Of a stretch of 64,000 nt of DNA, positions 926 through 64,000 are shown one piece after another. Both the position numbers and the translations under genes were made by a program. Numbering within the stretch: position 1 is the stretch's first letter; every line of letters begins with the position of its first letter. Source of the DNA: Agapetus fuscipes (lineage: Eukaryota > Arthropoda > Insecta > Trichoptera > Glossosomatidae). The stretch is taken from assembly GCA_951799405.1 (NCBI GenBank), contig OX637353.1:14570001-14634000 (forward strand). Reading direction: 5' to 3'. A model generated the notes under the pieces. It was given only the letters and a program-made list of their open reading frames with translations. It did not search any database and had not been told where the DNA came from.

Positions 926-3900
926 AAGGTAGCGGCAGATACACCTTTACGATCCCGGTAATGGTTAGATCTGTTCAGGAATAGCGATCCTGCCTCCGCA
1001 AGCTATTGTGTTTCTCCCACTCCTAACCGGGGGACACAATTCCTTTTCCTTATCCAATCATACTCTTATGCTCCTCAATCCCTCCTTATTTCCCATAACC
1101 GAATAGTTGTCGGTATAAACAACCAACCAGTTATAACTGGTAGGGCACCCTCTTGCCCTGGAGATGAGAAATCGTCTCCGAAGACGGATGAACCAATCCA
1201 CTGGATGGTCAACGGCATAGGATCAGGAAGGCCACGGGAAACCACCTGATTAAAGGATTTTCAAATCATCCCCAGAAAAAATCATCATATGGCATTATTT
1301 AAAACTAAATATTCCGGAGGTAAAAATCCCCCAATCGGATCTCCGGGGGGGAACGTTTTAAGTAAAACTAAAACCAAACATTTTGGAACATGGAATGCTC
1401 GGAGCTTGTATGGAGCGGGGAGACTAGAGTGCGCGATGAAGGAAATGCACCGACTTGAAATTGATTTGCTAGGCATAAGTGAGATGAGGTGGAAGGGAAG
1501 TGGAAGAGAGAGCACATCGGAATATGAAATTTACTTCTCTGGAAACAGTGAGCCTGATCACAGACGGGGAGTTGGGTTCATAGTCTCTAAAAAAATGAAT
1601 TCAACAGTTCTTAACTTTGTGGCTCAGTCAGACAGAGTTGCAATGCTACAAATGAAGGGCCATGGAGTAAATACAAATGTGATCCAAGTCTATGCTCCAA
1701 CTGCAGACAAGAATGAGGAAGAAATTGAGGCTTTTTATGAAGACGTCACTGGCGTACTAAAGCTGACTAAGCATGAAGAGGTCACCATTGTCATGGGAGA
1801 TTTTAACTCAAAAGTAGGAGCAGGAGTACCCAATGATGTTATGGGAGCATGGGGCCTGGGTGAGAGAAACGAGAGAGGTGAAAGAATGATTCGTTTCTGC
1901 CAAGAGGAGGGATTTATGATAATGAACACCTTCTACCAGCTCCCAGCAAGAAGACTATATACTTGGAAGTCACCAAGGGATCAAGATGAGCACATAGTAC
2001 GCAACCAGATTGACTACATGCTGATAAATAAAAGATTCAAAAATGCAATCACGTCTGTAAAAACATATCCTGGAGCTGATATTGGATCCGACCATAGTTT
2101 ACTAATGGGGAAAATTCTACTAAAACTGAAAAAAGTACCCAAAAAAGTCAAGAAAATTGCAACAGACCCAAGACTACTCAAGGAACAAAACATCAAAGAA
2201 AAGGTGCGAAATGAACTGGAAAACGGAATACAAAACCTATCTGAGGTATCTGAGGTGGAACAATTGTGGAATGGCTTAAAGGATACTATGTGTAAGACCA
2301 GTGAAAAATATCTGAAGACTGCAAAACGAGCACACAAAGAATGGATCACAGATGATATTTTATCCTTAATGGAGGAGAGAAGAAAATGGTTACCAAGGGA
2401 TCGTCAGAAATATAGGGAAGTACACAAAGAAATCCAGAAAAAGATCCGAGAAGCAAAACAAAAGCTGGAAGAGGAGCGATGCACTGAAATGGAAGACCTT
2501 GATAACAGGCACGACACCTTCAATCTCCATAAAAGGATCAAGGAATCAATAAAACAGGGTAGAGGAAGACCCCTTACACAGCTAATGCATAACAATGGTA
2601 ATTTAGCAGTGACCATAGATGAAAAAAAGGTGCTATGGGAGACATATGTTGAAGAGCTATATATGGATACACGTAACGAGAGACATGGTGTTGAAATAGC
2701 AATGGACGGCTCCCAGATCCTACAAGATGAGGTTGAGTATGCTATCAAGCAAATAAAAAATGGGAAATCACCCGGTCCAGACAACATCCACGGGGAGATT
2801 CTGAAGTTAATGGAAGGAAATGCACTCAAAAAGATTACATTGCTATTCAACAAAGTGTATGAAAGTGGTAATCTGCCAGAGGATTGGTTAAAATCCTACT
2901 TCATCACTATACCAAAGAATATTAATGCTAAAAAATGTGAAGAACATCGAACAATAAGCTTAATGAGTCATGTGATGAAATCTTTCCTGAAAATTATACT
3001 AAAGAGAATATACCAACAGTGTGACCAACAGTTATCAGCCGAACAGTTTGGTTTTAGGAACGGCTTTGGCACACGAGATGCTCTGTTTGGATTACAGGTT
3101 TTAGTGCAACGTTGTCTCGATATGAATAAAGATGTTTATGTTTGCTTTATTGACTACGAAAAGGCCTTTGACAGAGTGAGACACGACAAGCTGATCAGTA
3201 TACTGAAAGACATTGGGATAGACGATAAAAACACTCGCATTATTGCTAATATATATTGGCAGCAAACTGCTTCAGTGCTTGTAGAGAGTTCAGAGACCAG
3301 ACAAATACCCATCAGAAGAGGAGTTAGACAGGGATGCGTACTGTCACCAACACTTTTTAACCTATATTCAGAAAGGATCATGGCGCAAGCACTTCATGAG
3401 GCTAGGGAAGGCATTGTTGTCAACGGGCAGCTGGTAAACAACCTGCGGTATGCCGATGACACAGTCCTACTCGCTGACACTCAGGCGGATCTGCAAACAT
3501 TGTTGACCAGAATAAATGTCGCTAGCAAAGAAGTTGGCATTAACATTAACTTTAAGAAGACCAAGGTCATGGTTATCAGCAGAAACACAAACGCCTCCGT
3601 ACATGTAGAACTAGATGGCGAAAGCATTGAAAGATGCACTAGTTACAGGTACCTGGGATGTGTGGTCAACGAAAAGTGGGACATGTGTCAAGAAGTCAGA
3701 AGCAGACTAGAGCAAGCCCGAAATGTCTTCGCTAAAATGAGCAAATTACTGTTGTGCCGAAATTTAAGCCTTGAACTCCGGAAGCGCATAGTGAGGTGCT
3801 ACGTTTTCCCAATCGCTCTGTATGGTGTGGAGGGATGGACTCTCACGCAGGCACTGGAGAGACGTATTGAAGCATTCGAGATGTGTTTATACCGAAAAAT

Positions 3901-4236
3901 GCTTCGGATCTCTTGGCGTGATCGAGTCACCAATGAAGAAGTCCTTCAACGAATGCGCACTACAAAGGAGCTCCTGCCTACCATTAAGCAGAGAAAGCTA
4001 ATGTACTTCGGTCACATTATGAGAAATGAGAAGTACCGTCTCCTTCATCTTATCATTCAGGGTAAGATTGAGGGGAGAAGATCTCAGGGACGCCGAAGGA
4101 CATCGTGGCTGAAGAACCTGCGACAGTGGTTCGGCAGAAGCACCAAGTCCCTATTTCGAGCCGCAGCATCAAAACTCAAAATAGCTATGATGATCGCCGA
4201 TCTTCGTTAGAAGTGGCACAAGAAGAAGAAGAAGAA
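926..4236 (+). mobile_element. Full-length RTE-clade non-LTR retrotransposon
   Basis: A 3.3-kb LINE lies between two copies of the 13-bp direct repeat GAGGCTGACCGCC (913-925 and 4237-4249). These I read as target-site duplications made by insertion into a Rep240 copy. The element has a ~360-bp 5' leader, one long ORF (1289-4210) and a very short 3' end closing in an (AAG)n tract instead of poly-A, as is usual for RTE elements. A 5'-truncated sister copy with the same 3' end lies at 48602-49018. Confidence 0.9.
1289..4210 (+). CDS. RTE endonuclease-reverse transcriptase polyprotein (intact)
   Basis: This single 973-codon ORF would copy the element by target-primed reverse transcription. The N-terminal third is an apurinic/exonuclease-endonuclease-phosphatase type endonuclease: TWNARSL near residue 35, GDFNS at 170-174 and SDHS at 267-270. 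The RT domain covers about 500-770, with FIDYEKAFD at 620-628 and catalytic YADD at 721-724. The C-terminal region has the basic GRRRTSWLKNL-type block common in insect RTE copies. The ATG at 1289 lies at the start of the open frame and just after the leader. There is no internal stop, so the copy may be active. Proteins of this kind are often misannotated as craniofacial development protein 2-like host genes. Confidence 0.92.
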   Translation: MALFKTKYSGGKNPPIGSPGGNVLSKTKTKHFGTWNARSLYGAGRLECAMKEMHRLEIDLLGISEMRWKGSGRESTSEYEIYFSGNSEPDHRRGVGFIVSKKMNSTVLNFVAQSDRVAMLQMKGHGVNTNVIQVYAPTADKNEEEIEAFYEDVTGVLKLTKHEEVTIVMGDFNSKVGAGVPNDVMGAWGLGERNERGERMIRFCQEEGFMIMNTFYQLPARRLYTWKSPRDQDEHIVRNQIDYMLINKRFKNAITSVKTYPGADIGSDHSLLMGKILLKLKKVPKKVKKIATDPRLLKEQNIKEKVRNELENGIQNLSEVSEVEQLWNGLKDTMCKTSEKYLKTAKRAHKEWITDDILSLMEERRKWLPRDRQKYREVHKEIQKKIREAKQKLEEERCTEMEDLDNRHDTFNLHKRIKESIKQGRGRPLTQLMHNNGNLAVTIDEKKVLWETYVEELYMDTRNERHGVEIAMDGSQILQDEVEYAIKQIKNGKSPGPDNIHGEILKLMEGNALKKITLLFNKVYESGNLPEDWLKSYFITIPKNINAKKCEEHRTISLMSHVMKSFLKIILKRIYQQCDQQLSAEQFGFRNGFGTRDALFGLQVLVQRCLDMNKDVYVCFIDYEKAFDRVRHDKLISILKDIGIDDKNTRIIANIYWQQTASVLVESSETRQIPIRRGVRQGCVLSPTLFNLYSERIMAQALHEAREGIVVNGQLVNNLRYADDTVLLADTQADLQTLLTRINVASKEVGININFKKTKVMVISRNTNASVHVELDGESIERCTSYRYLGCVVNEKWDMCQEVRSRLEQARNVFAKMSKLLLCRNLSLELRKRIVRCYVFPIALYGVEGWTLTQALERRIEAFEMCLYRKMLRISWRDRVTNEEVLQRMRTTKELLPTIKQRKLMYFGHIMRNEKYRLLHLIIQGKIEGRRSQGRRRTSWLKNLRQWFGRSTKSLFRAAASKLKIAMMIADLR

Positions 4237-44683: not shown

Positions 44684-45271
44684 CAAATCGCACGTTTAAT
44701 AATAAAGAGAAATAACTCAAAAACTGAGAAAATCGAGATTTTGTAATAAAACTCAAGAACTTGTCCGGTCGATAGCTCAGTTGGTAGAGTGCTCGCATTT
44801 TACCCCGTGAGCTCGGGTTCGAATCCCACCGAGGAGGGTGTCAGAAATGATTTCCTATTTCGGTGTTTATTTCAAACCCCATAATAAAAAAATACCGGCA
44901 AGGCTTACTCAGCCTTCACAAGAAATGAGTACCAGCCCCCTCGAGAGCTGGGAAATACCCACTTCAACTGAAGTGGTTGGCGTAAGGCCGGCCCCCTTAC
45001 CTGTAAAAATAAATAGGTTCAACTCGCTACATGCGACCCCTTCGGGGATAACGCGGCAAGAAGTTACACTATATGTGTAGCTTAGTTGCGTTTGCGTAAC
45101 AATGCGAGAAGAATAGGTAGAATGCGACAGCCGTTCAATTTGGACGAATATGACCGAGATGAAACATCGGTCGCCTTTTTCATCCCATACAAGTTGTACT
45201 GGTTGTCTGAACTTCAAACGTGATTTCCCAACATTCTTATTTTTTGAGTTATTACTCTTTGTTAAGCATGC
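44684..45271. mobile_element. MITE (ATCGCACG family) interrupted by a SINE-1
   Basis: The left end AATCGCACGTTTAATAATAA and right end TTGAGTTATTACTCTTTGTT are inverted. The parts flanking 44761-45097 rebuild the same ~255-bp element that lies uninterrupted at 56744-57000. Confidence 0.75.
44761..45097 (+). repeat. SINE-1 copy (full) inside a MITE
   Basis: Head TCGATAGCTCAGTTGGTAGA, B-box GGTTCGAATCCC, body, and end TGTGTAGCTTAGTTGCGTTT. This is the clearest sense copy for defining SINE-1. Confidence 0.8.
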
Positions 45272-45280
45272 AAAAAAAAA

Positions 45281-45606
45281 AACGCAACTAAGCTACACAT
45301 ATAGTGTAACTTCTTGCCGCGTTATCCCCGAAGGGATCGCATGTGGCGAGTTGAACCTATTTATTTTTACAGGTAAGGGGGCCGGCCTTACGCCAACCAC
45401 TTCAGTTGAAGTGGAGGTTTCCCAGCTCCCGAGGGGGCTGGTACTCATTTCTTGTGAAGGCTGAGTAAACCTTGCCGGTATTTTTATTATGAAGTTTGAA
45501 ATAAACACCGAAATAGGAAATCATTTCTGACACCCTCCTCGGTGGGACTCGAACCCGAGCTTACGGGGTAGAATGCAAGCACTCTACCAACTGAGCTATC
45601 GACCGG
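45281..45606 (-). repeat. SINE-1 copy, inverted to the previous one
   Basis: Antisense full copy ending CAACTGAGCTATCGACCGGA. With 44761-45097 it forms a ~330-bp inverted pair separated by ~185 bp. Confidence 0.78.
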
Positions 45607-45609
45607 ACT

Positions 45610-51275: not shown

Positions 51276-51571
51276 GGGGGAGCGAAATGTGCTTCATACA
51301 ATCAATTTGTGGCTTCATTTGTATGGACCACATTTGACCGTTCGATCAAAAAACAATCTTCAAGTAGATACTGATCAATAGATAAATAAAGTTTTAAACT
51401 TTCACCAACACTTCCATGGTCGGTATTACATGATAAAGTTTATACTCGAACGTCATTCAGAAATTAACCATGCGGTTCTATGATAGAACAGAACATCACA
51501 TGACAAAACATCACAAGACAAAAAAAAAACAGATGATAAAACGTCACATACCTATGTGCCGTTTATGGTAT

Positions 51572-52045
51572 TGTTATGTAAATATAAATATTGAAATAAT
51601 TATGGGTAGTTATAGTTATAAGAGTCCTCATAGGTATAGGTAGGTAGGATCGATAATTGTGTATAAGTGTAGAATTCTCTAGGCTAAGTAGGTACTTGTT
51701 ATAATTATAGGAATTCTGTATTACATTTGTAGGTAGGATTTTGGTTGTATCTCTAGGTAGTACGTGAAGCGTCGAGAAGTAATAATTACTCTGGAACCGT
51801 CTGGCGACTTTAGTTCTGGATCATACTGCTCTGAAGAGTATAAAGGTGCGAATGGCCTGCAGAGCGGGCCAGTATCATAGAGACTTACAAACACATCGAA
51901 GTCATCTGATCAGTGAACCAAAACCAAGTGGAATAATCGAGAAAGTAGTGTGAAAATAAATTTTGTAACTGTGTAAAATAAATAACTATTGAAGAAGACC
52001 TGTGTATTTTTAATTTGAAGACAATTGAACCCTAATTTCGTAACA
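51572..52045 (+). repeat. Element A 5' LTR
   Basis: 474 bp, TGTTATG...CGTAACA. TATA box TATAAAG at 51839 with a likely start ~30 bp downstream (CCAGTATC), then AATAAA signals. It differs from the 3' LTR by a 2-bp gap and scattered substitutions, so A is young but older than B. The next bases, ATTGGCGTCAGGTGCGG (52046 on), form the probable primer-binding site; I cannot assign the tRNA. Confidence 0.92.
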
Positions 52046-52712
52046 ATTGGCGTCAGGTGCGGAATTGTCAAGAAAAATTAAGATCTTCTGTCTAAAAATA
52101 AATAAAATAAATTAAATAGTGTTAAAATGAACTTTATTCAAATTGAACTTTGTGTGAACTGACTTTTGTGAAAACAAGTGTTTAAATAAATTTTTGTTAA
52201 AAGAAAAGACGCAAAAGCAAGTTGCTTATAAATTCTGGAACATCATATGGAACATAATTCTGGACATAACATAATGACTATTTTACCGCATTGAGAAAGT
52301 CATCAAATTGGACCATAGTTTTTTTATTATTGTGTGTGATTAAAAAAAAATAAAATAAATAAATAAATAAAAATCTTGAAAAATATTACAAAAGAACGTT
52401 CCAGATTCATCGAGAAAAAGTTTTTGAATAACTATCCTTTGTTTACAAGTGTGTGAATGTACATTAAGTACCTACCTGTGTGTTTGAAAGACTTGAGACG
52501 AAATAAATAATTATGTACTATCAGACATTATTATGTTAAAAATATTGGTGATTTAAAAATAAATATTAAAAGACAGTACCTACCAATCAGTGTAATCAGA
52601 TAAATTATTATTTTGCTAAAGTACGTATTCAAAACAGCTATATATATAAAACTCAAAACTTGTATTAAATAAATTTAAAAATATTTTTGTTTTGAAGTAA
52701 ATTTTGAAAAAA

Positions 52713-54038
52713 ATGGCAACCAAAGTGAACATCAAGGACCTCAAAGTCACTGAGCTTAAAAATGAGCTTCTGGAGAGGGACCTGGAGACCTCAGGAGGGA
52801 AGGCGGCCTTACAGGCACGCCTCATGGAGGCCTTAGAACAGTCAGGCGAAGACCCGGCATATTTTGTCATGGCGTCTGGAGGGGACCGCGCCTTGGACGA
52901 GCTAAACCTCAGCATCACCGGAAACTTCACTTCCATGGAGGAAAAGCTGAAAGGGGAGATGGCTGACAACGCCAAGACCCTGAAAGTGGAGATGGCTGAC
53001 AACGCCAGGACCCTGGAGGAGAAAATGGCTGACAATTCCAAGACCCTGAGGGAAGACCTGAAGGCGGAGATGGCTGACAACGCCAGGACCCTGAAGGCGG
53101 AGATAGCGGATAGTCTCACAACCCTGAAAGGAGAAATAGAGGTGAAGCTGACTGGTTTTGAGGAAACAGTTGCGGAAATGAAAACCCGCATTTCCACCCT
53201 GGAGGACCGTCTGCGTGCCGAGCTGGCTGACAAGTGCCAGATGGAGTCCACCAGGATATCCCCCAAAGGCCTTCACGACGAGATCGACCAGGGATGCTCA
53301 ACTCCAACCAGGGTCACAAGAGGGGATGATGACCCTTCCCTAGCAAAGCACAACCTCCCAACCTTCGACGGGAAGACGTCGTGGGAGGAATACTTGACCC
53401 TCTTTGAGACGGCTGCCATGATGGGAGCCTGGAGCCAGCAGAAGAAGGCTTCGGTTCTCAGCCTGTCGCTCCGAGGAGACGCTCTCAGGGTTCTGCAGGC
53501 CATACCCCTGGACAACCGTGGTGACTTTGGGCAGCTGAAGCAGCGCTTGGATATGCGCTATGGCCACAAGTGCCTGGAGCAGCTGTACAAGTCGCAGCTG
53601 AACACAAGGGTGCAGAAGCCCAACGAGAGCCTCCAGGAGTTTGAAATGGACATCGCCCGCCTGGTACGAGACGCTTACCCGACAGCCTCCGACGACATCT
53701 GTGAGAGCTTGGCAGTGGACAAGTTCCTAAATGGATTGCGGGAATGGGAGACGCAACAAGCCGTAAAACTGGCCCATCCCAAGGCTTTGAACGAGGCGCT
53801 CAGCCAAGCTCTCGAGTTTGAGGCTGTCAAACAGTCCATCAGGGGCCACGCCAGGGTTCGTGCAGTCGAGGCAGAGGAGGTCAAGCTACCTACAACCGAG
53901 GAGCTAATTGAAAAAGTGCTGGAACGTCTGAGACCTCGAAGACGAGACCCACGCTGCTGGAACTGCGGACAGCTGGGCCACCTTAGCACCAAGTGTCCCA
54001 AGCCTCAGAAACCCAGAAAACAGGCTGCGGAAAACTAG
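52713..54038 (+). CDS. Element A Gag with SAP-like N-terminus
   Basis: The start is the ATG at 52713; the frame also extends a few codons upstream through a TTG. Gag packages the element RNA. Residues ~5-45 (VNIKDLKVTELKNELLERDL...LQARLMEAL) form a SAP motif, a DNA/chromatin-binding helix-extended loop-helix seen in host chromatin proteins and unusual at the N-terminus of Gag. Residues ~75-150 contain four to five copies of an 18-19-residue MADNA(K/R)TL repeat, probably a coiled coil. A capsid-like region follows, and a CCHC knuckle CWNCGQLGHLSTKC lies near the end. The ORF overlaps the protease frame by ~45 nt in the -1 register, implying ribosomal frameshifting. Confidence 0.88.
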   Translation: MATKVNIKDLKVTELKNELLERDLETSGGKAALQARLMEALEQSGEDPAYFVMASGGDRALDELNLSITGNFTSMEEKLKGEMADNAKTLKVEMADNARTLEEKMADNSKTLREDLKAEMADNARTLKAEIADSLTTLKGEIEVKLTGFEETVAEMKTRISTLEDRLRAELADKCQMESTRISPKGLHDEIDQGCSTPTRVTRGDDDPSLAKHNLPTFDGKTSWEEYLTLFETAAMMGAWSQQKKASVLSLSLRGDALRVLQAIPLDNRGDFGQLKQRLDMRYGHKCLEQLYKSQLNTRVQKPNESLQEFEMDIARLVRDAYPTASDDICESLAVDKFLNGLREWETQQAVKLAHPKALNEALSQALEFEAVKQSIRGHARVRAVEAEEVKLPTTEELIEKVLERLRPRRRDPRCWNCGQLGHLSTKCPKPQKPRKQAAEN

Positions 54039-54588
54039 AAAGGGTTAATGGGAAGGGGCAACCGTTGACCCACGCTGGAGAGGCCCTGAAATCTGCTGCT
54101 ACTGTCGCAACCGTGAGAGGAAAAACCAGCAGCATTTTTATCAATGGCATAATAGATGGAGTAACTCGTGAACTACTGGTGGACACGGGAGCAACCAGGA
54201 CAATTCTGAGACGCGACATAGTGGCACGAGGTAAGCAGATTGCACCAACAAAGTGGTCTCTGCACACCGCCACGGGAGAGTCAGCACAGGTGTATGGGGA
54301 GACGATTGCCACCTTCCAAATTGGCAGCACCACTTTTGATCATCGGACGTTGGTGGCCAACATTGAAGAAGACGTTATATTGGGAATGGACATACTGGAC
54401 AGATTTGGGTGCAGTTTAAATTTAAAGAAAGGGTCCATTAAAATTGGAAATGAAGAAGTCATCCTGCAAAAACGGAAAGAACTGGCTGCACGTGTTATCC
54501 TAGCCAAGAATACCGAAGTGAAGGGGCGATCCGAGATGATAGTGAGTGCCCGCCTGGATTCCAGTAGTACAAATGACCAAATCTGTAT
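53993..54588 (+). CDS. Element A pol, protease part (cut by element B)
   Basis: A retropepsin-like aspartic protease with LLVDTGATRTIL (DTG at frame residues 64-66) and ILGMDILDRFG downstream. It would mature the Gag-Pol polyprotein. The reading frame is cut at 54588 by insertion of element B; the nominal ORF runs on to 54643 into LTR sequence. Once B and one 4-bp duplication are discounted, this frame is in register with the pol segment at 59871. Confidence 0.88.
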
Positions 54589-54611
54589 TGTAACGAAATA
54601 CACTGGTAGAT

Positions 54612-54808
54612 TGTACATTAAGGCTTTCACGGCCGGCACTTGACACAATCTTAAAATTTTTCTCGGGTTGTGTAGCCATGTTCTATCGGAAGTTTGTTAC
54701 ACTTTTTTTGTTACACTTTTTTCCGGACGGAAAAAAGTGTAACAAAAAAGTGTAACAAACTTCCGATAGAACATGGCTACACAACCCGAGAAAAATTTTA
54801 AGATTGTG
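54612..54808. mobile_element. Foldback element with 12-bp TSD
   Basis: Inserted in B's 5' LTR between two copies of ACACTGGTAGAT (54600-54611, 54809-54820). Nearly all of 54644-54808 is a perfect hairpin of ~80-bp arms around CCGGACGG. A short unpaired lead (AAGGCTTTCACGGCCGGC) precedes it. A 12-bp duplication favours retroposition (Penelope-like or LINE-mediated) over a cut-and-paste MITE. Confidence 0.82.
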
Positions 54809-54994
54809 ACACTGGTAGATGTTTATTGGTGTACGTGTGTTTTGAGAGAATGTTCTGGCCCAGACGATTGTAATTGTAAGGTGTGTATGTAGGTAGGAAA
54901 TGGACTCTTCATGAAATAAATATGTCCAGAATCGTCTATACAACTGTGGTAGTGGAACTTTCTAGGGCAGGCTAGAATGGCCCCTAGGTTCCGC

Positions 54995-55030
54995 TATAAG
55001 AAGGGCGACATTCGGCTGAAGGGAGTCAGT
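54995..55030 (+). promoter_or_regulatory. LTR core promoter upstream of the SERBP1-like gene
   Basis: TATAAGA at 54995 lies 31 bp before TCAGT at 55026, the spacing and sequence of an insect TATA plus initiator. The same pair recurs in the 3' LTR (59611 and 59642). Transcripts from here would run through the SERBP1-like ORF ~230 bp downstream. Confidence 0.7.
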
Positions 55031-55256
55031 CTTCGAAGCACTCACACAGAGGAGTATCTAGTTGCCAGGGCGACCAATAAGGTGTAAAATAAATGTAATC
55101 TGTACGAAATAAATAAGTGTGTTAAAATAAATCTGTTAGAATAAGTCTGTTAAAATTAATCAATAAGTGAAGAAATGTCAGTGTGGTGAAGTTTTGTCGG
55201 TGACGAAATCTGCCAACATCCGTCCGTTGGGGTAGTAAAAACAGATAAAGACCATC

Positions 55257-56684
55257 ATGGAGAACTCGTATGGAGTTGGCGTCGTGAACAGATACGCTCT
55301 TTTTCTGGACGATGAATCCGATCCGCTCGATGTACTGAAGGCGCAGGAGCTCGAGCGGGAGCGGAAGAGGAAGAGCAAAGAGGCCGAGAAAGAGAACAAA
55401 GGCAAGCCGGAGGTCAAAGTCAAGACTGCGGCGGCGGCGGCTCCAGCGCGCAAGGGCATCAAGGAGACCCAAAATGTGAAGCCGCAGGACGGCAAGGTCA
55501 CCGAGCCCAAGCGAGACAACAAACCCAACGCCAGGCCCAACGAGCGCAACCCGGAGCGTAACCCGGAGCGCAACAGCGAGCGCAACCAAGACCGCCCGCC
55601 CGCAAGGCGTCGCGAGGAGCGGCCCAACGGACCTGCTGACGGCGCCGAGGGCAACCCCAGGCCGCCGCGCAGGGACTTCGGGGACAGGAAGCCCGGGAAC
55701 TACGGAGAGCGCCGGAACAACTACGGAGACAACGCCGGGGGGGAGCGCCGCAACTATGGGGACAACGCTGGAGGAGAGCGTCGCAACTATGGGGACAACA
55801 ACGAACGACGTGAAGGAGGAGAGCGCCGCAGCTACGGAGACAACCAGGGCGAGAGGCGCAACTTCGGCGGCGATCATGTGGAACGCAGGAACTATGGCGG
55901 GGAGGGCGAGGGCGGAGAGCGCCGCGCTCCCTTCAGGGACAGGGGGCCGCGGGACGGACAGCGCGACGGGCAGCGCGGGGGCGGCAGACCGTACGACGGG
56001 CGCGGCAAGAGAGAGTTCGACCGCCGCTCGGGATCTGACAGGACTGGAGTGAAGCCTGTGGACAAGCGCGACGGCGGAGGCTCACACAACTGGGGCTCGC
56101 ACAAGGACGACATGGAGGAGTGGAACAAGCCACAGTCTGAAGGTGAGCAAACTGATGCCGAGAAGGTGGAGGGTTCTCCACCTGCTCCTGCTGCTCCCGT
56201 TGAGGTCAAGGAGGGCGAGGAGGAGCAGGCCCCGGCTCCCGTGGAAGAGGAAGCCAAGGAGCTCACGCTGGACGAGTGGAAGGCGCTGAAGGGAGGACGC
56301 GCCAAGCCCCAGTACAATCTGCGTAAGGCCGGCGAGGGAGAGGACCTTTCGCAGTGGAAGAACATGGTGGCACTTAAGAAGGTCAAGGCCGAAGGTGAGG
56401 AGAGTGACGACGAGTATGACAACTCCGAGTATCCTCAGCGTGTGGGCCGACAGAAGCGTGTCGTGGGCATTGAGTTCACATTCTACGAGCCGCGTCGTGG
56501 GGGTGGGGGGATGGGCCGCGGAGGGCGTGGAGGAAGGGGTGGCGGTGGGCGTGGAGGAGGGCCTCGGGGCCCCCGCCGGGACGAGGGGGGCCCTCCCCAC
56601 CCCGTGGCGGAGGAGAGACCACGCAACCAGCGCCAGAACGCCCCCAAGGTGGACGACAACAAGGACTTCCCGTCCTTGGGCTAA
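55257..56684 (+). CDS. SERBP1/HABP4-family (Vig-like) mRNA-binding protein, intronless
   Basis: A 475-codon intact ORF. The family binds mRNA and 80S ribosomes; Drosophila Vig was found with RISC and heterochromatin (known biology, not visible here). Supporting motifs: N-terminal NRYALFLDDESDPLDVL, a long Arg/Gly/Asn-rich region with GGERRNYGDNAG repeats (residues ~160-260), HNWGSHKDDMEEWNK, TLDEWKAL near 338, FTFYEPRRGGG then an RGG block, and terminal DFPSLG. The start has a good context (ATCATGG). Much GC-richer than the flanks and without introns, so it is a processed retrocopy or captured cDNA lying in B's 5' LTR downstream of the LTR promoter. No poly-A tract is evident. Confidence 0.88.
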   Translation: MENSYGVGVVNRYALFLDDESDPLDVLKAQELERERKRKSKEAEKENKGKPEVKVKTAAAAAPARKGIKETQNVKPQDGKVTEPKRDNKPNARPNERNPERNPERNSERNQDRPPARRREERPNGPADGAEGNPRPPRRDFGDRKPGNYGERRNNYGDNAGGERRNYGDNAGGERRNYGDNNERREGGERRSYGDNQGERRNFGGDHVERRNYGGEGEGGERRAPFRDRGPRDGQRDGQRGGGRPYDGRGKREFDRRSGSDRTGVKPVDKRDGGGSHNWGSHKDDMEEWNKPQSEGEQTDAEKVEGSPPAPAAPVEVKEGEEEQAPAPVEEEAKELTLDEWKALKGGRAKPQYNLRKAGEGEDLSQWKNMVALKKVKAEGEESDDEYDNSEYPQRVGRQKRVVGIEFTFYEPRRGGGGMGRGGRGGRGGGGRGGGPRGPRRDEGGPPHPVAEERPRNQRQNAPKVDDNKDFPSLG

Positions 56685-56743
56685 GCACGCAGAACATCTG
56701 GTAACATTATGTATCATCACCTATGAACCTAGATATATCGAGT

Positions 56744-57000
56744 CATATCGCACGCTTAATCATAAAGAGCAATAACTCGAAAAATAAGAATGTTGGGAAA
56801 TCACGTTTGAAGTTCAGACAACCAGTACAACTTGTATGGGATGAAAAAGGCGACCGATGCTTTATCTCGGTCATATTCGTCCAAATTGAATGGCTGTCAC
56901 ATTCTACCTATTCTTCTCGCATTGTTCTTGTGTTTTATTACAAAATCTCGATTTTCACAATTTTTGAGTTATTTCTCTTTATGATTAAACGTGCGATATG
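56744..57000. mobile_element. MITE (ATCGCACG family) in the 3' UTR-like region
   Basis: CATATCGCACGCTTAATCAT and its inverse form ~41-bp ends. It matches 44684-45271 (there interrupted by a SINE). It lies ~60 bp after the SERBP1-like stop and may have been present in the parental 3' UTR. Confidence 0.82.
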
Positions 57001-57004
57001 TATG

Positions 57005-57225
57005 TAATGTTATTATTGAAGTAAATGTATAATTATGTACGAGGATGTTTATTTTGAGGCTCTGCAGGACGGGACTTCCACTGCTGAAGTGTGACGCTCC
57101 TTGGCTAACATCGTTGACTGCGCTTTCAGTAAATTGTTGACATTTTTATAAACATTTAGAAGAAAGGGAAATCCATGTTTGTTGATGTTTTTGTCTTATT
57201 AACTGGTTTTATTGAAGAGTACAAA
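57005..57225 (+). other. Remainder of the SERBP1-like block
   Basis: AT-rich 3' UTR-like sequence between the MITE and the point where LTR homology resumes (AAAGAACCCAGG, ~57226). No poly-A tail or AATAAA was seen. Confidence 0.5.
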
Positions 57226-57700
57226 GAACCCAGGAAAAACGTAACAATGGTGTCGGTGTGAAGTTTAAAACCAAGTACCAAGTAAAAACTGTGCTTGAGA
57301 CTTTTGAAAAATATATGTGGACAACATAATAAAAACTGATGAATAAAAAAAAAAAAAGTTTTAAATAAAACTGGTTAAACTTGAATTAAAAACGATCGTG
57401 TGGTTACCCGCTAAAAATTTGATTGAAGTGTGCATAGATAACGTGTTAATAATATTGTGATAGTGTTAGTAAATACTCATTAGCCGATCTGGCGAAGCAA
57501 AGTAAATAATCATTATCTAATATCATTATTTGAAATTTAAAAATAAATATTAAAAGGCGGTACCTACCTACCGTCAGTATAATTAGATAAATTATTATTT
57601 TGCCAAAGTACGTATTTAAAATAACTTTATATATAAAACTCATAACCCGTATTAAATAAATTTGCAAATATTTTTGTTTTGAAGTTTGTTAAAATAAAAA

Positions 57701-59413
57701 ATGGCTAAGGTGAACATCAAGGACCTCAAAGCCTATGAGCTTAAGAATGAGCTTCTGGAGAGGGACCTGGAGACCTCAGGAGGGAAGGCGGCCTTACAAG
57801 CACGCCTCATGGAGGCCTTGGAACAGTCAGGCGAAGACCCGGCATATTTTGTCATGGCGTCTGGAGGGGACCGCGAGCGAGCCGTGGAAGAGTTTAAAAC
57901 AAAGATGGCTGCCAACTTCAAGAGCTTGTGGGAAGACCTAGGTGGTTGGAAGGAGGAGAGGGCTAAAAACCTAGCCTTAAAAATGTCGGTGGACACTGAT
58001 AGTGTAAAATTAAGTGATAATCAGGATGACAAAAAGGCCGATATGTCAACTGAGGATGAGTCGTCTCAGGAGTTGGGGAAGGGAGACCTGCAGGCCAAAA
58101 ACAACGGCCAGCTCAAGGTTGAGGACGCAGCTGACAGCAAAGATGTCAAAGACGATGTCAAGTCGGCTGAAAACGGCAAGAGTGACTCGGCCGAGGTGAA
58201 GGCTGACAAGGATGCGAAGGAGGAGACGGACGCCAAGGAGGAGGATGAGGACGCCAAGGACAAGAAGGGCAAGGCCAAGAAGGCCAACAGTGTGAAGAAG
58301 AAGCCCGCGCCCAAGAAGAAGGCGGAGGAGGCCGTGGAGGAGGCTCCCAAGAAGAAGAAGGCCGTGGAGCCGCCGGTGCCCGTGCCCGCGGGCCGGGGCA
58401 TCCCCATCGACCACATCCCCGACGTGGAGGTGGCCATCTCCAGGTTCAAGATGGAGGACCTCAAGTTCCGGTACAATCAATTGTGCCGCACGAACCTCAT
58501 CAAGCGCAACAAAAAGAAGTTCAAGGGCTACGAGTTTGAGAAGGACACGCCTGAGCACAAGGCCAAGCTGGAGGAGGTGCAGAAGCTGGAGCCCAAGCAG
58601 CTGCGGACGCTGTGCGAGAAGCTGGGCTTGGACAAGAGGGGCGCGCCCACGGAGCTGGCCAGCAGGGTGGTGGGCTTCCTGCTGCTGCCAAAGCAAGTCT
58701 CCTCGCACGCCAGGGGGCTGATGAAGGAGAGGCCGGTGACTGACCGCGGCGAGGCCACGGGAGGCAGGCCCAGAAGGTCCGCTGCTGCTATTGTCAAGAG
58801 AGGTTACTCTAACGAGGAGTATGAAACAGATCCGGAAACCAAAGTGCGGGGACCCAAAGTCAGCAGGGATGAATTAGGGGATTCAGATGGCTCGTACAAC
58901 CCGAGTGGCTCCGGACAGGAGGCGGACTCTGACTTTGACCCGTCAGTGGGGGAGGGGGGCGCTCTCTCCCGCAGGCGCCGCGCCCCCGCCCGCAGGGGCT
59001 CAGCCAAGCAGAGCAAGCAGAAGGGACGACCCAAGCATGGCGCGGCAGGAAGCCACTCAGCGAGTCAGAGGACGAGAGCAAGAGTGAAAACTCCACTTCC
59101 GAGCAGGAGAGCGGCTCCGACAACCAAGGATTCTGATCCTTTGACGCAGGAGCCGGCGAGCAAGCGGAGCCGAGGAGCGGTGGCTGACCGGGGACGCAAG
59201 GCGGCGCCCCCAACCAAGGAAAGGCGCCCATGCCGGCCGCCAAGAGGAAAGCACCCCCCCCCACACCAGCCAGCAATGACGGGCAAAACCCTAAGGGGAA
59301 AATTCCGTGGAACGTCATTTTTCCTGACCACTGGATGCAACTGTGGGTCAAACTGCCCGTACCTTCTTAAAGAAAAGACTGTTCCGGGGCGGAACAGTCT
59401 AAGGGGGGGATAA
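57701..59413 (+). CDS. Element B fusion protein: Gag SAP start + DEK-like protein + Pol tail remnant
   Basis: A 570-codon ORF. Residues 1-~55 match element A Gag (SAP motif). An acidic/Lys-rich stretch (~110-225) leads to a DEK domain at ~230-335: GRGIPIDHIPDVEVAISRF, FKGYEFEKDTPEHKAKLEEV and LCEKLGLDKRGAPTELASRV. DEK is a chromatin and histone-binding protein. A Ser/acidic region follows (SDGSYNPSGSGQEADSDFDP). Around 59040-59270 a neighbouring frame looks more DEK-like (SESEDESKSENSTSEQES), so a frameshift seems likely; the DEK C-terminal domain is absent. The last ~35 residues (FFLTTGCNCGSNCPYL...) copy the end of A's Pol, but with its CCCH ligands damaged. The stop codon abuts the LTR. 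Confidence 0.82.
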   Translation: MAKVNIKDLKAYELKNELLERDLETSGGKAALQARLMEALEQSGEDPAYFVMASGGDRERAVEEFKTKMAANFKSLWEDLGGWKEERAKNLALKMSVDTDSVKLSDNQDDKKADMSTEDESSQELGKGDLQAKNNGQLKVEDAADSKDVKDDVKSAENGKSDSAEVKADKDAKEETDAKEEDEDAKDKKGKAKKANSVKKKPAPKKKAEEAVEEAPKKKKAVEPPVPVPAGRGIPIDHIPDVEVAISRFKMEDLKFRYNQLCRTNLIKRNKKKFKGYEFEKDTPEHKAKLEEVQKLEPKQLRTLCEKLGLDKRGAPTELASRVVGFLLLPKQVSSHARGLMKERPVTDRGEATGGRPRRSAAAIVKRGYSNEEYETDPETKVRGPKVSRDELGDSDGSYNPSGSGQEADSDFDPSVGEGGALSRRRRAPARRGSAKQSKQKGRPKHGAAGSHSASQRTRARVKTPLPSRRAAPTTKDSDPLTQEPASKRSRGAVADRGRKAAPPTKERRPCRPPRGKHPPPHQPAMTGKTLRGKFRGTSFFLTTGCNCGSNCPYLLKEKTVPGRNSLRGG

Positions 59414-59866
59414 TGTAACGAAATACACTGGTAGATGTTTATTGGTGTACGTGTGTTTTGAGAGAATGTTCTGGCCCAGACGATTGTAATTGTAAGGTGT
59501 GTATGTAGGTAGGAAATGGACTCTTCATGAAATAAATATGTCCAGAATCGTCTATACAACTGTGGTAGTGGAACTTTCTAGGGCAGGCTAGAATGGCCCC
59601 TAGGTTCCGCTATAAGAAGGGCGACATTCGGCTGAAGGGAGTCAGTCTTCGAAGCACTCACACAGAGGAGTATCTAGTTGCCAGGGCGACCAATAAGGTG
59701 TAAAATAAATGTAATCTGTACGAAATAAATAAGTGTGTTAAAATAAATCTGTTAGAATAAGTCTGTTAAAATAAATCTATTGTAAGAAAGTCTGTGTAAA
59801 TAAACTGTATGGCTAACTTGTGTTAAACTTGTGTTTTAATTAAAAGAACCCAGGAAAAACGTAACA
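59414..59866 (+). repeat. Element B 3' LTR
   Basis: 453 bp, TGTAACG...CGTAACA, preceded by a purine-rich tract AAGGGGGGGATAA that also encodes the ORF end. TATA at 59611 and initiator at 59642. Confidence 0.9.
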
Positions 59867-59870
59867 GTAT

Positions 59871-62800
59871 GATAGAACCGGAGAACATGGACAATGTTAA
59901 CAAAGGAGTCATGGTGGCAAGAACAGTGATTCGCGCAAAGGAGACCATTCCTGTCAAGATCATGAATGTGAACAGCTACCCAGTTAAAATGAATGAAGGT
60001 TTTGTTTTGGGCAGATGTGAGAGGATAACTTCCATTGTGCAACAGATGACAAACATGTCATGCGAAGGAAACAAATTGTCAACACAATTGGAAGCCCTGG
60101 TCCACGACGCTTCCCAAGGTCTAACCGAGGAAAACAAACGGAGAGTGAGGAGTTTGATCTGCCGCTACCAGAACATTTTCGAGGACTCTAATGGCCGTCT
60201 GGGAAGAACCAAGGTAGTGCGACATAGCATAGACACCGGAGAAGCGAGACCAATAAAACAGGCTCCAAGAAGACTACCCTTTGCAAAGCGGGAAGAAGCT
60301 GACAAGATCATCAAAGACATGAGCAAGGATGGCATCATAGAACCATCAAGTAGCCCTTGGACATCCCCGGTGGTACTGGTGAAAAAGAAGGATGGTACCA
60401 CGAGATTTTGTGTGGACTACAGACTGCTCAACGATGTTACGAAAAAGGATAGTTACCCTCTGCCAAGGATTGACGACACCTTGGACACATTGGCAGGATG
60501 CACCATTTTTTCCACATTGGACCTGAAAAGTGGCTACTGGCAAGTTGAATTGGATGCCAAAGATAAGGAGAAAACTGCATTCTCGACTGGATCTGGACTT
60601 TGGCAGTTCACCGTGATGCCATTTGGCTTATGCAATGCCCCCGCCACGTTTGAAAGGCTGATGGAGAATGTGCTGCGAGGACTGTCATGGGAAACCTGCC
60701 TGGTATACTTGGATGACATAATCATCCTGGGAAAGGACTTCAACCATCAGTTGAGAAATCTGGAGCAAGTTTTCGGGCGACTACAAGACGCTGGACTGAA
60801 GCTCAACCCGAAAAAGTGTAACCTGTTCAAGAAACAAGTGAATTACCTGGGACACATAGTTTCTCAACGTGGAGTTGAAGTTGACCCTGCCAAAATCAAG
60901 GCAGTAAGAGACTGGCCCGTGCTGAAGGACAAACATGAAACTAGGAGTTTCCTGGGGCTGTGCACTTATTACAGGAGGTTTGTGCCAAGATTTGCGGACA
61001 TTGCAAAACCGCTCACCAAGCTTACGGAAGAAAACACTCGCTTCCATTGGAGTGATTCCTGCGCACAAGCATTTGAAGAGCTTAAGGGAAGATTAACAAG
61101 TGCCCCCATCTTGAGCTACCCACGAAAAGATGGAAAGTTCATCCTGGATACCGACGCTAGTAATGTGGGGATAGGAGGCGTCCTTTCCCAAATACAGGAT
61201 GGGCATGAGACTGTTCTGGGTTACTTCAGTAAAGTGCTTTCCAAGCCAGAACGAAATTATTGCGTGACCAGACGAGAGCTTCTTGCCGTGATAAAATCAG
61301 TGGAACACTTCCGCAAATACTTGTACGGGAGAAAATTCACACTACGGACTGATCATGCTGCACTGGTTTGGCTTCTGAAATTCAAAAACCCAGAAGGGCA
61401 AGTGGCTAGATGGATTGAAAGGCTCCAGGAGTATGATTATGACTCCGAACATAGACCTGGCACGCTTCATCGAAATGCGGACGCATTATCCAGACGACCA
61501 TGCGCCAGTGACTGCAAACATTGCAGCAAGATGGAGGACAAGGTAGCAATTGTCCAAAGGACGACCACCGAAGATGAGGACTGGCAAGATGAAAAATTGG
61601 CGCAAGACCAACTGAATGATCCGGACTTGAAGTATGTGATGGAATGGGCGCGAGAAGGAGAAAGGCCAACCTGGGAAAAACTCGCCCCCTTATCACCAAC
61701 TGTCAAGGCTTATTGGGCTCAATGGGGATCCATAGTGATAGAAGGAGGGTTTCTGAAACGAAAGATCGAGAAGGAAGACGGCACACTTAGAAGAAAGCAA
61801 ACCCTCGTTCCGAGGAGCCGAGTACCGGAAATCCTTGGACTGCTGCATGGAGGAACTTCTGGAGGACATCTAGGCGTTAAGAAGACGCTGGAGAAAGTGA
61901 AAGAGCGATTTTACTGGATCAACTGCAGCGAAGACGTCAAAGATTGGTGTCGAAAATGTGTAACCTGTGCAACGGCCAATGGACCGCAAAGGAAAAGGCG
62001 AGCACCAATGCGTCAGTACAATGTTGGCAGCCCCTTTGAAAGAATTGCCATCGACATAGCTGGCCCATTTCCTACAACTGAGAAGGGTAACAAGTACATC
62101 ATGGTGGTGATGGATTACTTCAGCAAGTGGGTGGAAGCTTACTCAATTCCTAACCAAGAGGCCGTAACCGTGACTGAAGTTCTAGTTACCGAATTTATCA
62201 GCAGGTTTGGCGTACCCCTGGAATTACATTCTGATCAGGGAAGGAACTTTGAAGCTGCTATCTTCCAGCAAATGTGTGAGCGGCTAGGGATCTACAAGAC
62301 CAGGACCACTGCGCTACATCCACAGTCTGATGGAATGGTGGAAAGGATGAACCGTACCGTGGGGAGGTACTTAGCCAAAGTAGTGTCCAGCCATCAGCGG
62401 GACTGGGACCGACATCTGCCTTTGTTCTTATTGGCTTACCGGTCGGCTGTTCAGGAAACGACGAAGAAGACTCCCAGCAGCATACTGTTTGGGCGAGAAA
62501 TGCGACTTCCTTGTGATCTCAAATTTGGCTGCAAACCAGGTGAAGACCTAGCCGGAGAAGACTATGTGACAGACCTTCGCAGGAGGCTGGATGACATCCA
62601 TGATCAGGTCCGCATGAACATCGGGGAAGCCAGCGATCAAATGAAGGAGCGCTATGACACCAGAGCTGACAGCATGGGGTACAAAGCTGGTGACTGGGTG
62701 TGGCTTTTTGACCCCAAGAGGCGCCAAGGATACTGTCCGAAACTTCAGCGTTCCTGGGACGGGCCGTACGAGATCTTGGAGCGCATCAACGATGTGGTCT

Positions 62801-63537
62801 ACCGCATAAAAAAGAGACCAAACGGAAAACCAAGGGTCGTGCACTACAATCGCCTCTCACCATACCTAGGCGATAATGATGACCAACCAGCCCAAAAAGT
62901 ACGACAGTGCGTCGCATCCGAAAGATCACCAGCCTTTGAGACGTTTTGGGAGAACGCGAAGGCAGGGCAGAAGTTTCGCCATGGAGTGACCACAGAAGTC
63001 CACAAGGACTTATTTGAGGTCACTAGGGACCACACACTGGCATGCAGTGTACCGGAAGATCTAGATATGTCTAGAGGAATTGCACGGGTCTTCCGATACA
63101 AATTCGGAGAACCGCAACCCTCGAGCAGCCCGCAAGGAAGAGCTCTGAGACTACCGAAGGGGCGTCAACAAGCATACTGCCTGGTTGTCCCGGATTCCAG
63201 CAACCTGGAAGAGGACTACAAGGCATTGTGGGACGGCCTTGTTGAGCTGCGTGACTACATGTTGGAGGATCAGCAGGCGCGTCTGGCAATACCGAAGATG
63301 GGTGGCGGCCGCGCTAATCGAGACTGGCGGATAATCCGGAGTATGATTGAAGCAGTGTTCTCGGGAGTCGGCATCAGCGTCATGGTGTGCTGCGAGCAAG
63401 CGCAGCCGAGAGCCAGTGGGGAGAAATCCGTGGACTGCCACTTCTTCCTGACCACAGGGTGTCGACGTGGATCAGCATGCCCCTACCTACACAGAGTCAA
63501 GACTGTTCCGGGACGAAAAAGTCTAGGTGGGGGGTAG
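59871..63537 (+). CDS. Element A pol: RT, RNase H, integrase, macro-like domain, CCCH finger
   Basis: The ORF is open from 59869; residue numbers count from there. RT: FSTLDLKSGYWQVELD, MPFGLCNAPATFERLM and YLDD at 280-283. RNase H: LDTDASNVGIGGVLS near 428. Integrase: HHCC zinc module at ~659-705, catalytic D729, D789, E825 (D-35-E) and a GPYEILERI module near the end. Beyond the usual end, residues ~1040-1176 look like a TARG1/OARD1-type macro domain (DLFEVTRDHTLACSV, MSRGIARVFRYKFG, IPKMGGGRANRDW, MIEAVFSGVGISVMV). Then CHFFLTTGCRRGSACPYLH fits C-X7-C-X5-C-X3-H. In TARG1 a catalytic Asp lies in the GxG-loop segment; here that site appears to be Ala, so binding without hydrolysis is possible (inference). 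The stop lies directly against the 3' LTR. Confidence 0.88.
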
Positions 63538-64000
63538 TGTTATGTAAATATAAATATTGAAATAAGTATGGGTAGTTATAGTTATAAGAATCCTCAAAAG
63601 TATTGGTAGGTAAGATCGATAATTATGTATAAGTGTAGAATTCTCTAGGCTAAGTAGGTACTTGTTATAATTATAGGAATTCTGTATTACATTTGTAGGT
63701 AGGATTTTGGTTGTGTCTAGGTAGTACGTGAAACATCGAGAAGTAATAATTACTCTGGAACCGTCTGGCGACTTTAGTTCTAGATCATACTGCTCTACAG
63801 AGTATAAAGGTGCGAATGGCCTGCAGAGCGGGCCAGTATCATAGAGACTTACAAACACATCGAAGTCATCTGATCAGTGAACCAAAACCAAGTGGAATAA
63901 TCGAGAAAGTAGTGTGAAAATAAATTTTGTAACTGTGTAAAATAAATAACTATTGAAGAAGACCTGTGTATTTTTAATTTGAAGACAATTGAACCCTAAT
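63538..64000 (+). repeat. Element A 3' LTR (cut by window end)
   Basis: Begins TGTTATG right after the pol stop and a G-rich tract (GGTGGGGGGTAG). It matches the 5' LTR to its base 465; the last ~9 bp are outside the window. TATA at 63803. Confidence 0.92.

Follow-up and report, generated by a model that had tools for sequence, protein, structure and literature searches.

A TARG1-class macro domain followed by a CCCH finger at the end of a Ty3/gypsy Pol in Agapetus fuscipes

Macro domains are counter-defence tools of some RNA viruses. Among retroelements, open reading frames (ORFs) with macro domains are found in fish endogenous retroviruses (Basta 2009, as cited in PMC4977317), and ALC1-like macro domains are described as readers or erasers of ADP-ribose (PMC7050489). 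The sequence analyzed here is a 64,000 nt window of the Agapetus fuscipes genome (contig OX637353.1, positions 14570001–14634000). A Ty3/gypsy long terminal repeat (LTR) element near the end of this window encodes a Pol protein that ends in a TARG1-class macro domain and a CCCH zinc finger. Given the fish endogenous retroviruses, macro domains in retroelements are already known, and it is the version in a Ty3 Pol that is new. Among the papers listed, a macro domain in Ty3/gypsy Pol was not recognised in the openly licensed literature, judged by title and abstract start, and none was recognised in the openly licensed literature on gene capture and Lepidoptera.

The Pol ORF as listed is at positions 59869–63537 (forward strand, as are all features of the element given below) and encodes 1222 aa that include reverse transcriptase, RNase H, integrase, macro domain and finger. 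The Pfam matches to RVT_1, RNase H, Integrase_H2C2, rve and p58/SH3 end near residue 999. Pol continues for ~220 residues beyond this point. The original prediction had noted the extension, at ~200 residues, and had proposed a TARG1/OARD1-type macro domain in it. The domain is at residues ~1041–1174 (positions 62989–63390), and phmmer, an independent profile and the predicted fold agree on it. When Pol residues 1020–1222 are compared with PDB by phmmer, the top five rows are OARD1/C6orf130 (E 6.2e-11 to 7.6e-11). The independent profile consists of 27 OARD1-type proteins, with element sequences excluded. It matches one of the 1184 six-frame ORFs of the window, which is the ORF holding this Pol (E 1.9e-17), and scores 63.7 bits with the real segment and 6.3 bits with the best of 1000 shuffles. 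The fold model was based on an alignment of 30 rows, i.e., the window segment, the database sequence P0001 (see below) and 28 OARD1-type proteins, 6 of which are unnamed records. The predicted fold of the window segment matches the macro fold, with 26–28% identity to human TARG1 structures. By homology and predicted fold, the Pol tail of the window family, termed family A, is an ALC1-like/TARG1-class macro domain. The Pfam model Macro (PF01661) is not reported for the window Pol, either whole or with the segment alone. It is weak in a sister family, B (12.1 bits vs a cut-off of 22), and is likewise unreported in pieces from a distant lineage, C/D.

A word-based search of a protein database with Pol residues 1010–1222 gave no match among 533 candidates at E 0.01, which does not imply absence. 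With the 203-aa segment, one of 294 candidates matches; this is P0001, which is 99% identical and is on a 996-base ENA contig. In viral contigs, a shared-word search, which again does not imply absence, gave no match for the segment, for Pol residues 1–1010 or for lineage C. Among viral structures the fold model is best matched by Kadipiro virus VP8 (28% identity, E 6.3e-8), a hint that a dsRNA virus may encode an OARD1-type macro domain.

In family A, Lys84 of TARG1 is replaced by Pro and Asp125 by Ala, such that the TARG1 hydrolase dyad is missing. The loss of the catalytic Asp had been pointed out originally; the replacement of the Lys is additional to it. In family B these positions are Arg and Ala. 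The window macro domain retains the glycine-rich second loop, the GIA helix start and the Trp. In the first loop, A/B and C/D have Ser in place of the first Gly, as does one reptile OARD1 row (P0049). As both TARG1 catalytic residues are gone, the A/B macro domains probably bind ADP-ribose, as a shield or a tether. The earlier suggestion of ADP-ribose binding only is plausible, but it is not implied by the lost Asp. SCO6735 is without both TARG1 residues and yet hydrolyses (PMC9411070 and PMC5087735), so that a missing dyad by itself does not signify inactivity.

The macro domain is followed by a finger, C1190-X7-C-X5-C-X3-H1208 (positions 63436–63492). Its spacing is an exact fit to the CCCH class, in agreement with the original prediction, and the Pfam zf-CCCH model passes on the isolated segment (21.7 bits, cut-off 20.5); in the context of the whole Pol the score is 17.7 bits and is below the cut-off. 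The nearest solved fingers are those of CPSF4/CPSF30. A finger-like tail in an element nested within the host Pol (see below) was considered as support for finger function and was rejected, because it lies next to the polypurine tract and its first Cys and its His are missing in the window copy.

The genome of 618 Mb in 148 contigs was searched with the 203-residue segment. Scoring was applied to the top 150 of 1401 first-look candidates; all 150 are full-length and without stops, and 149 have one and the same score. Open frames in related copies are 1422 aa or longer. Thirty loci were excised, the window copy being among them. Relative to the window copy, the remaining 29 have a Lys to Asn change at one site and 1–3 base differences in 609, which shows a recent burst among the best-ranked copies of family A. 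The identity of these copies is not evidence of constraint, as ranking by score biases the scored lists towards identical copies. Right flanks start with RTAY in all 26 loci where the LTR end was found (30 tried); in these best-scoring copies the tetramers are ATAT (12), GTAT (6), ATAC (5) and GTAC (3). A 4-bp target duplication is present in 10 of 11 pairable copies (15 left ends fetched) and is GTAT in the window copy. Some of the 26 flanks have similar repeats within the first few hundred bases, but none is common to all in the filtered listing. A few copies have open frames of ~1834–1861 aa, which is room for Gag and Pol in a single frame; in the window copy Gag and protease are in different frames.

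Evidence for constraint comes from the comparison of families A and B and not from copy identity. The genome was also searched with the OARD1-type protein P0104, and 150 of 1007 candidates were scored and ranked by score. There are no internal stops in 141 of these places and stops in 9. Three places are OARD1-like exons with 48% identity (one read, L091), which presumably belong to a host gene, and 9 were assigned to another lineage by score and match length (7 read). Of the remaining 138 matches 8 were read: 5 are family A and 3 are family B. The macro domain is followed by the C-X7-C-X5-C-X3-H finger in all 8. In two of these pieces (L087 and L088) the open frame stops short of the integrase C-terminal domain; these are damaged, but the macro part is still open. 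Free degradation of the segment is thus not seen, given the lack of stops in 150/150 and 141/150 places of the two score-ranked lists and the presence of the domain in the diverged family B. Families A and B are 89% identical in reverse transcriptase and 51% identical in the macro domain. Non-synonymous differences (pN) are 0.071 for reverse transcriptase, 0.129 for the integrase C-terminal domain, 0.328 for the linker, 0.335 for the macro domain and 0.237 for the finger, with synonymous differences of 0.69–0.95, which is near saturation. There are 54 core columns with ≥95% conservation across 26 OARD1-type rows. Where A keeps the conserved residue, B is identical to A at 23 of 25 columns, vs 43 of 105 other sites. 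Judged from this comparison, the macro domain and finger evolve fast and are under purifying selection. The ratio of non-synonymous to synonymous change (dN/dS), which had been proposed as a check on this segment, is based on few changes within families and on saturated dS between A and B.

A macro domain is present at a different position in lineage C/D, where it follows RNase H and precedes the integrase H2C2 zinc domain within a single open frame in 5 of 7 places read (L076–L082). The order was determined by a Pfam run on L076 and L079. Of the two exceptions, L081 has a stop codon that terminates it behind the macro domain and L082 is without the RNase H side. The L076 macro domain matches OARD1 with an E of 5.5e-20. 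The three aligned C/D sequences retain Lys84 and Asp125, as do, by eye, all seven that were read. As the dyad is kept, the C/D macro domain probably removes ADP-ribose. The C/D reverse transcriptase is 42–46% identical to that of family A (two read), and the integrase of L095, the one read on, ends soon after its C-terminal domain. The A/B macro domains are mostly nearer to OARD1-type proteins (24–35%) than to C/D (20–25%), whereas in an unrooted tree all element macro domains fall to the same side of a branch that has weak support (77/84) and long arms. The C/D macro domain may have been captured separately or may be a module that has moved, as the sequence identities and the unrooted tree point in differing directions.

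The host element shows the features of Ty3/gypsy: LTRs, Gag with a knuckle, protease, and the order reverse transcriptase-RNase H-integrase. The 5' LTR is at positions 51572–52045, with the target duplication GTAT at 51568–51571. Gag, which has an N-terminal SAP domain and a CCHC knuckle by Pfam-type domain matches, is at 52704–54038, and the protease part of Pol is at 53993–54584. The 3' LTR (63538–64000) is cut by the window end; it extends ~9 bases beyond and is followed by GTAT. The two LTRs are 96.6% identical over 470 bases. A non-autonomous LTR element at 54589–59866 (GTAT duplication at 54585–54588 and 59867–59870) is inserted between protease and reverse transcriptase and severs the protease part. 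The frame of 59869–63537 was part of a longer Pol before this insertion, and the Pol start at 59869 in the original prediction is incorrect.

The nested element is outside the Pol module. It has one open frame (57701–59413), in which the SAP-containing N-terminus of Gag is fused to a DEK-like part and to the finger tail of Pol; the DEK-like part matches PDB DEK with an E of 6e-12. A genome search with the LTR of the nested element gave 1088 candidates, of which 40 were scored and 30 loci read. DEK-derived sequence is beside 25 of these 30 loci, and the DEK core at 97–100% is beside 23 (L046–L075); pairs of LTR loci are the two ends of one nested element. The nested element thus represents a non-autonomous LTR family that is present in multiple copies and bears a gene for a chromatin protein of host type. 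Inside its 5' LTR is an HABP4/SERBP1-like (vig-like) ORF of 475 uninterrupted codons (55257–56684), which takes the place of ~45 LTR bases. By eye its ends show no poly-A stretch and no target duplication, which suggests acquisition through template switching during reverse transcription. Long inverted-repeat insertions that resemble miniature inverted-repeat transposable elements are found at 54641–54811, inside the same LTR, and at 44763–45608. An intact non-LTR retrotransposon ORF of 973 aa with endonuclease and reverse transcriptase is at 1289–4210.

The explanation we favor, with about an even chance of being correct, is that the macro domain acts on ADP-ribose placed by the host and interferes with host ADP-ribosylation, by binding in A/B and by removal in C/D. 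The mark would be placed by host ADP-ribosyltransferases on proteins or nucleic acid of the element, or on DNA ends generated during integration; the A/B domain would bind the mark, as a shield or tether, and the C/D domain would remove it. The sequences show the identity and position of the domain, its retention and constraint in the diverged family B, and where the dyad is present or lost. A counter-PARP role for the Pol macro domain is an inference, and so are capture from a cellular gene, binding of ADP-ribose, the nature of the substrate and of the host enzyme, and any release of a separate protein. A number of points weigh against this explanation. We know of no host ADP-ribosyltransferase that acts on Ty3 elements. 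The first-loop GxG reads SRG in A and B, which together with Pro or Arg in place of the catalytic Lys makes ADP-ribose binding by these families unsure, and family A retains only 25 of the 54 OARD1-conserved core columns. With a pN of 0.328, the linker evolves as rapidly as the macro domain, so that rapid macro change may represent relaxed constraint. The A–B ratios depend on saturated dS, and within families there are few changes, with macro dN/dS of 0.23–0.42 and finger values from 0 to 0.96. The fold model was built on OARD1-type rows and is thereby biased towards that fold; without such rows the predicted local distance difference test (pLDDT) score is 39.

The position directly behind the integrase C-terminal domain fits integration targeting equally well. 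The macro domain and finger would then act like a chromodomain behind integrase, reading ADP-ribosylated chromatin or nascent RNA and tethering the complex. The ALC1 macro domain reads ADP-ribosylated chromatin, neither A nor B has kept the dyad, and a part like DEK, which is a chromatin protein, is found in the nested relative. The ALC1-like class includes readers (PMC7050489) and the chromovirus integrase C-terminus bears a chromodomain (PMC3605345). Nevertheless we consider targeting rather unlikely: the C/D domain precedes the integrase zinc domain and keeps the dyad, insertions choose a 4-bp RTAY (26/26 readable right flanks), and no repeat is common to all 26 flanks, which is a weak test on best-scoring copies only. 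Interference with host ADP-ribosylation is preferred because the C/D domain is off the integrase C-terminus with its dyad kept, and because of the fast divergence, although the latter is also explicable by relaxed constraint. The lost catalytic residues, the altered GxG and a divergence as fast as that of the linker would also be expected of a captured host segment that serves as a structural or solubility extension of integrase, without ADP-ribose function. This appears improbable in view of the core that is constrained between A and B, the macro domain with intact catalytic residues in a distant lineage, and the 150 of 150 open copies in the score-ranked list. Chance resemblance has next to no probability; PF01661 is silent on the window segment, but the fold matches a macro domain, and the OARD1 match (E 6e-11), the independent profile (E 1.9e-17) and the 1000 shuffles, none of which comes near, rule it out.

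A tentative proposal, about which we have more doubt than confidence, is that two distant Ty3 lineages acquired TARG1-type macro domains in independent captures and at different sites within Pol, with one lineage having an eraser and the other an eraser turned reader. If true, retrotransposons would be in conflict with host ADP-ribosylation, or would exploit it, in a way that has not been described so far, and non-autonomous relatives with a host DEK-like gene would share this theme. Open and constrained macro domains in abundant recent Ty3 families would add ADP-ribosylation to the interaction of retrotransposons and hosts. The dyad-less version behind integrase and the dyad-bearing version between RNase H and integrase provide a natural contrast.

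Among known systems, TARG1/OARD1 (C6orf130) is closest to the Pol macro domain by sequence and predicted fold. It differs in not being part of a retroelement Pol, and its Lys84 and Asp125 are replaced in family A but kept in C/D. SCO6735 and BT1257 (2FG1) are ALC1-like and also have neither of the TARG1 residues, the Asp being replaced by Ala (PMC5087735). Alphavirus nsP3, coronaviruses and Kadipiro virus VP8 likewise represent virus-encoded macro-type domains. The fish endogenous retroviruses are retroelements with a macro domain too, but they are epsilon-like and have it in additional ORFs, according to PMC4977317. No chromodomain is present among the Pfam matches of the window Pol up to E 10. 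The chromodomain of chromovirus integrase is similarly a chromatin-type module behind a Ty3 integrase, and here a macro domain and a CCCH finger are found instead. The first finger of CPSF4/CPSF30 has the identical C-X7-C-X5-C-X3-H spacing, whereas Pol has a single C-terminal finger.
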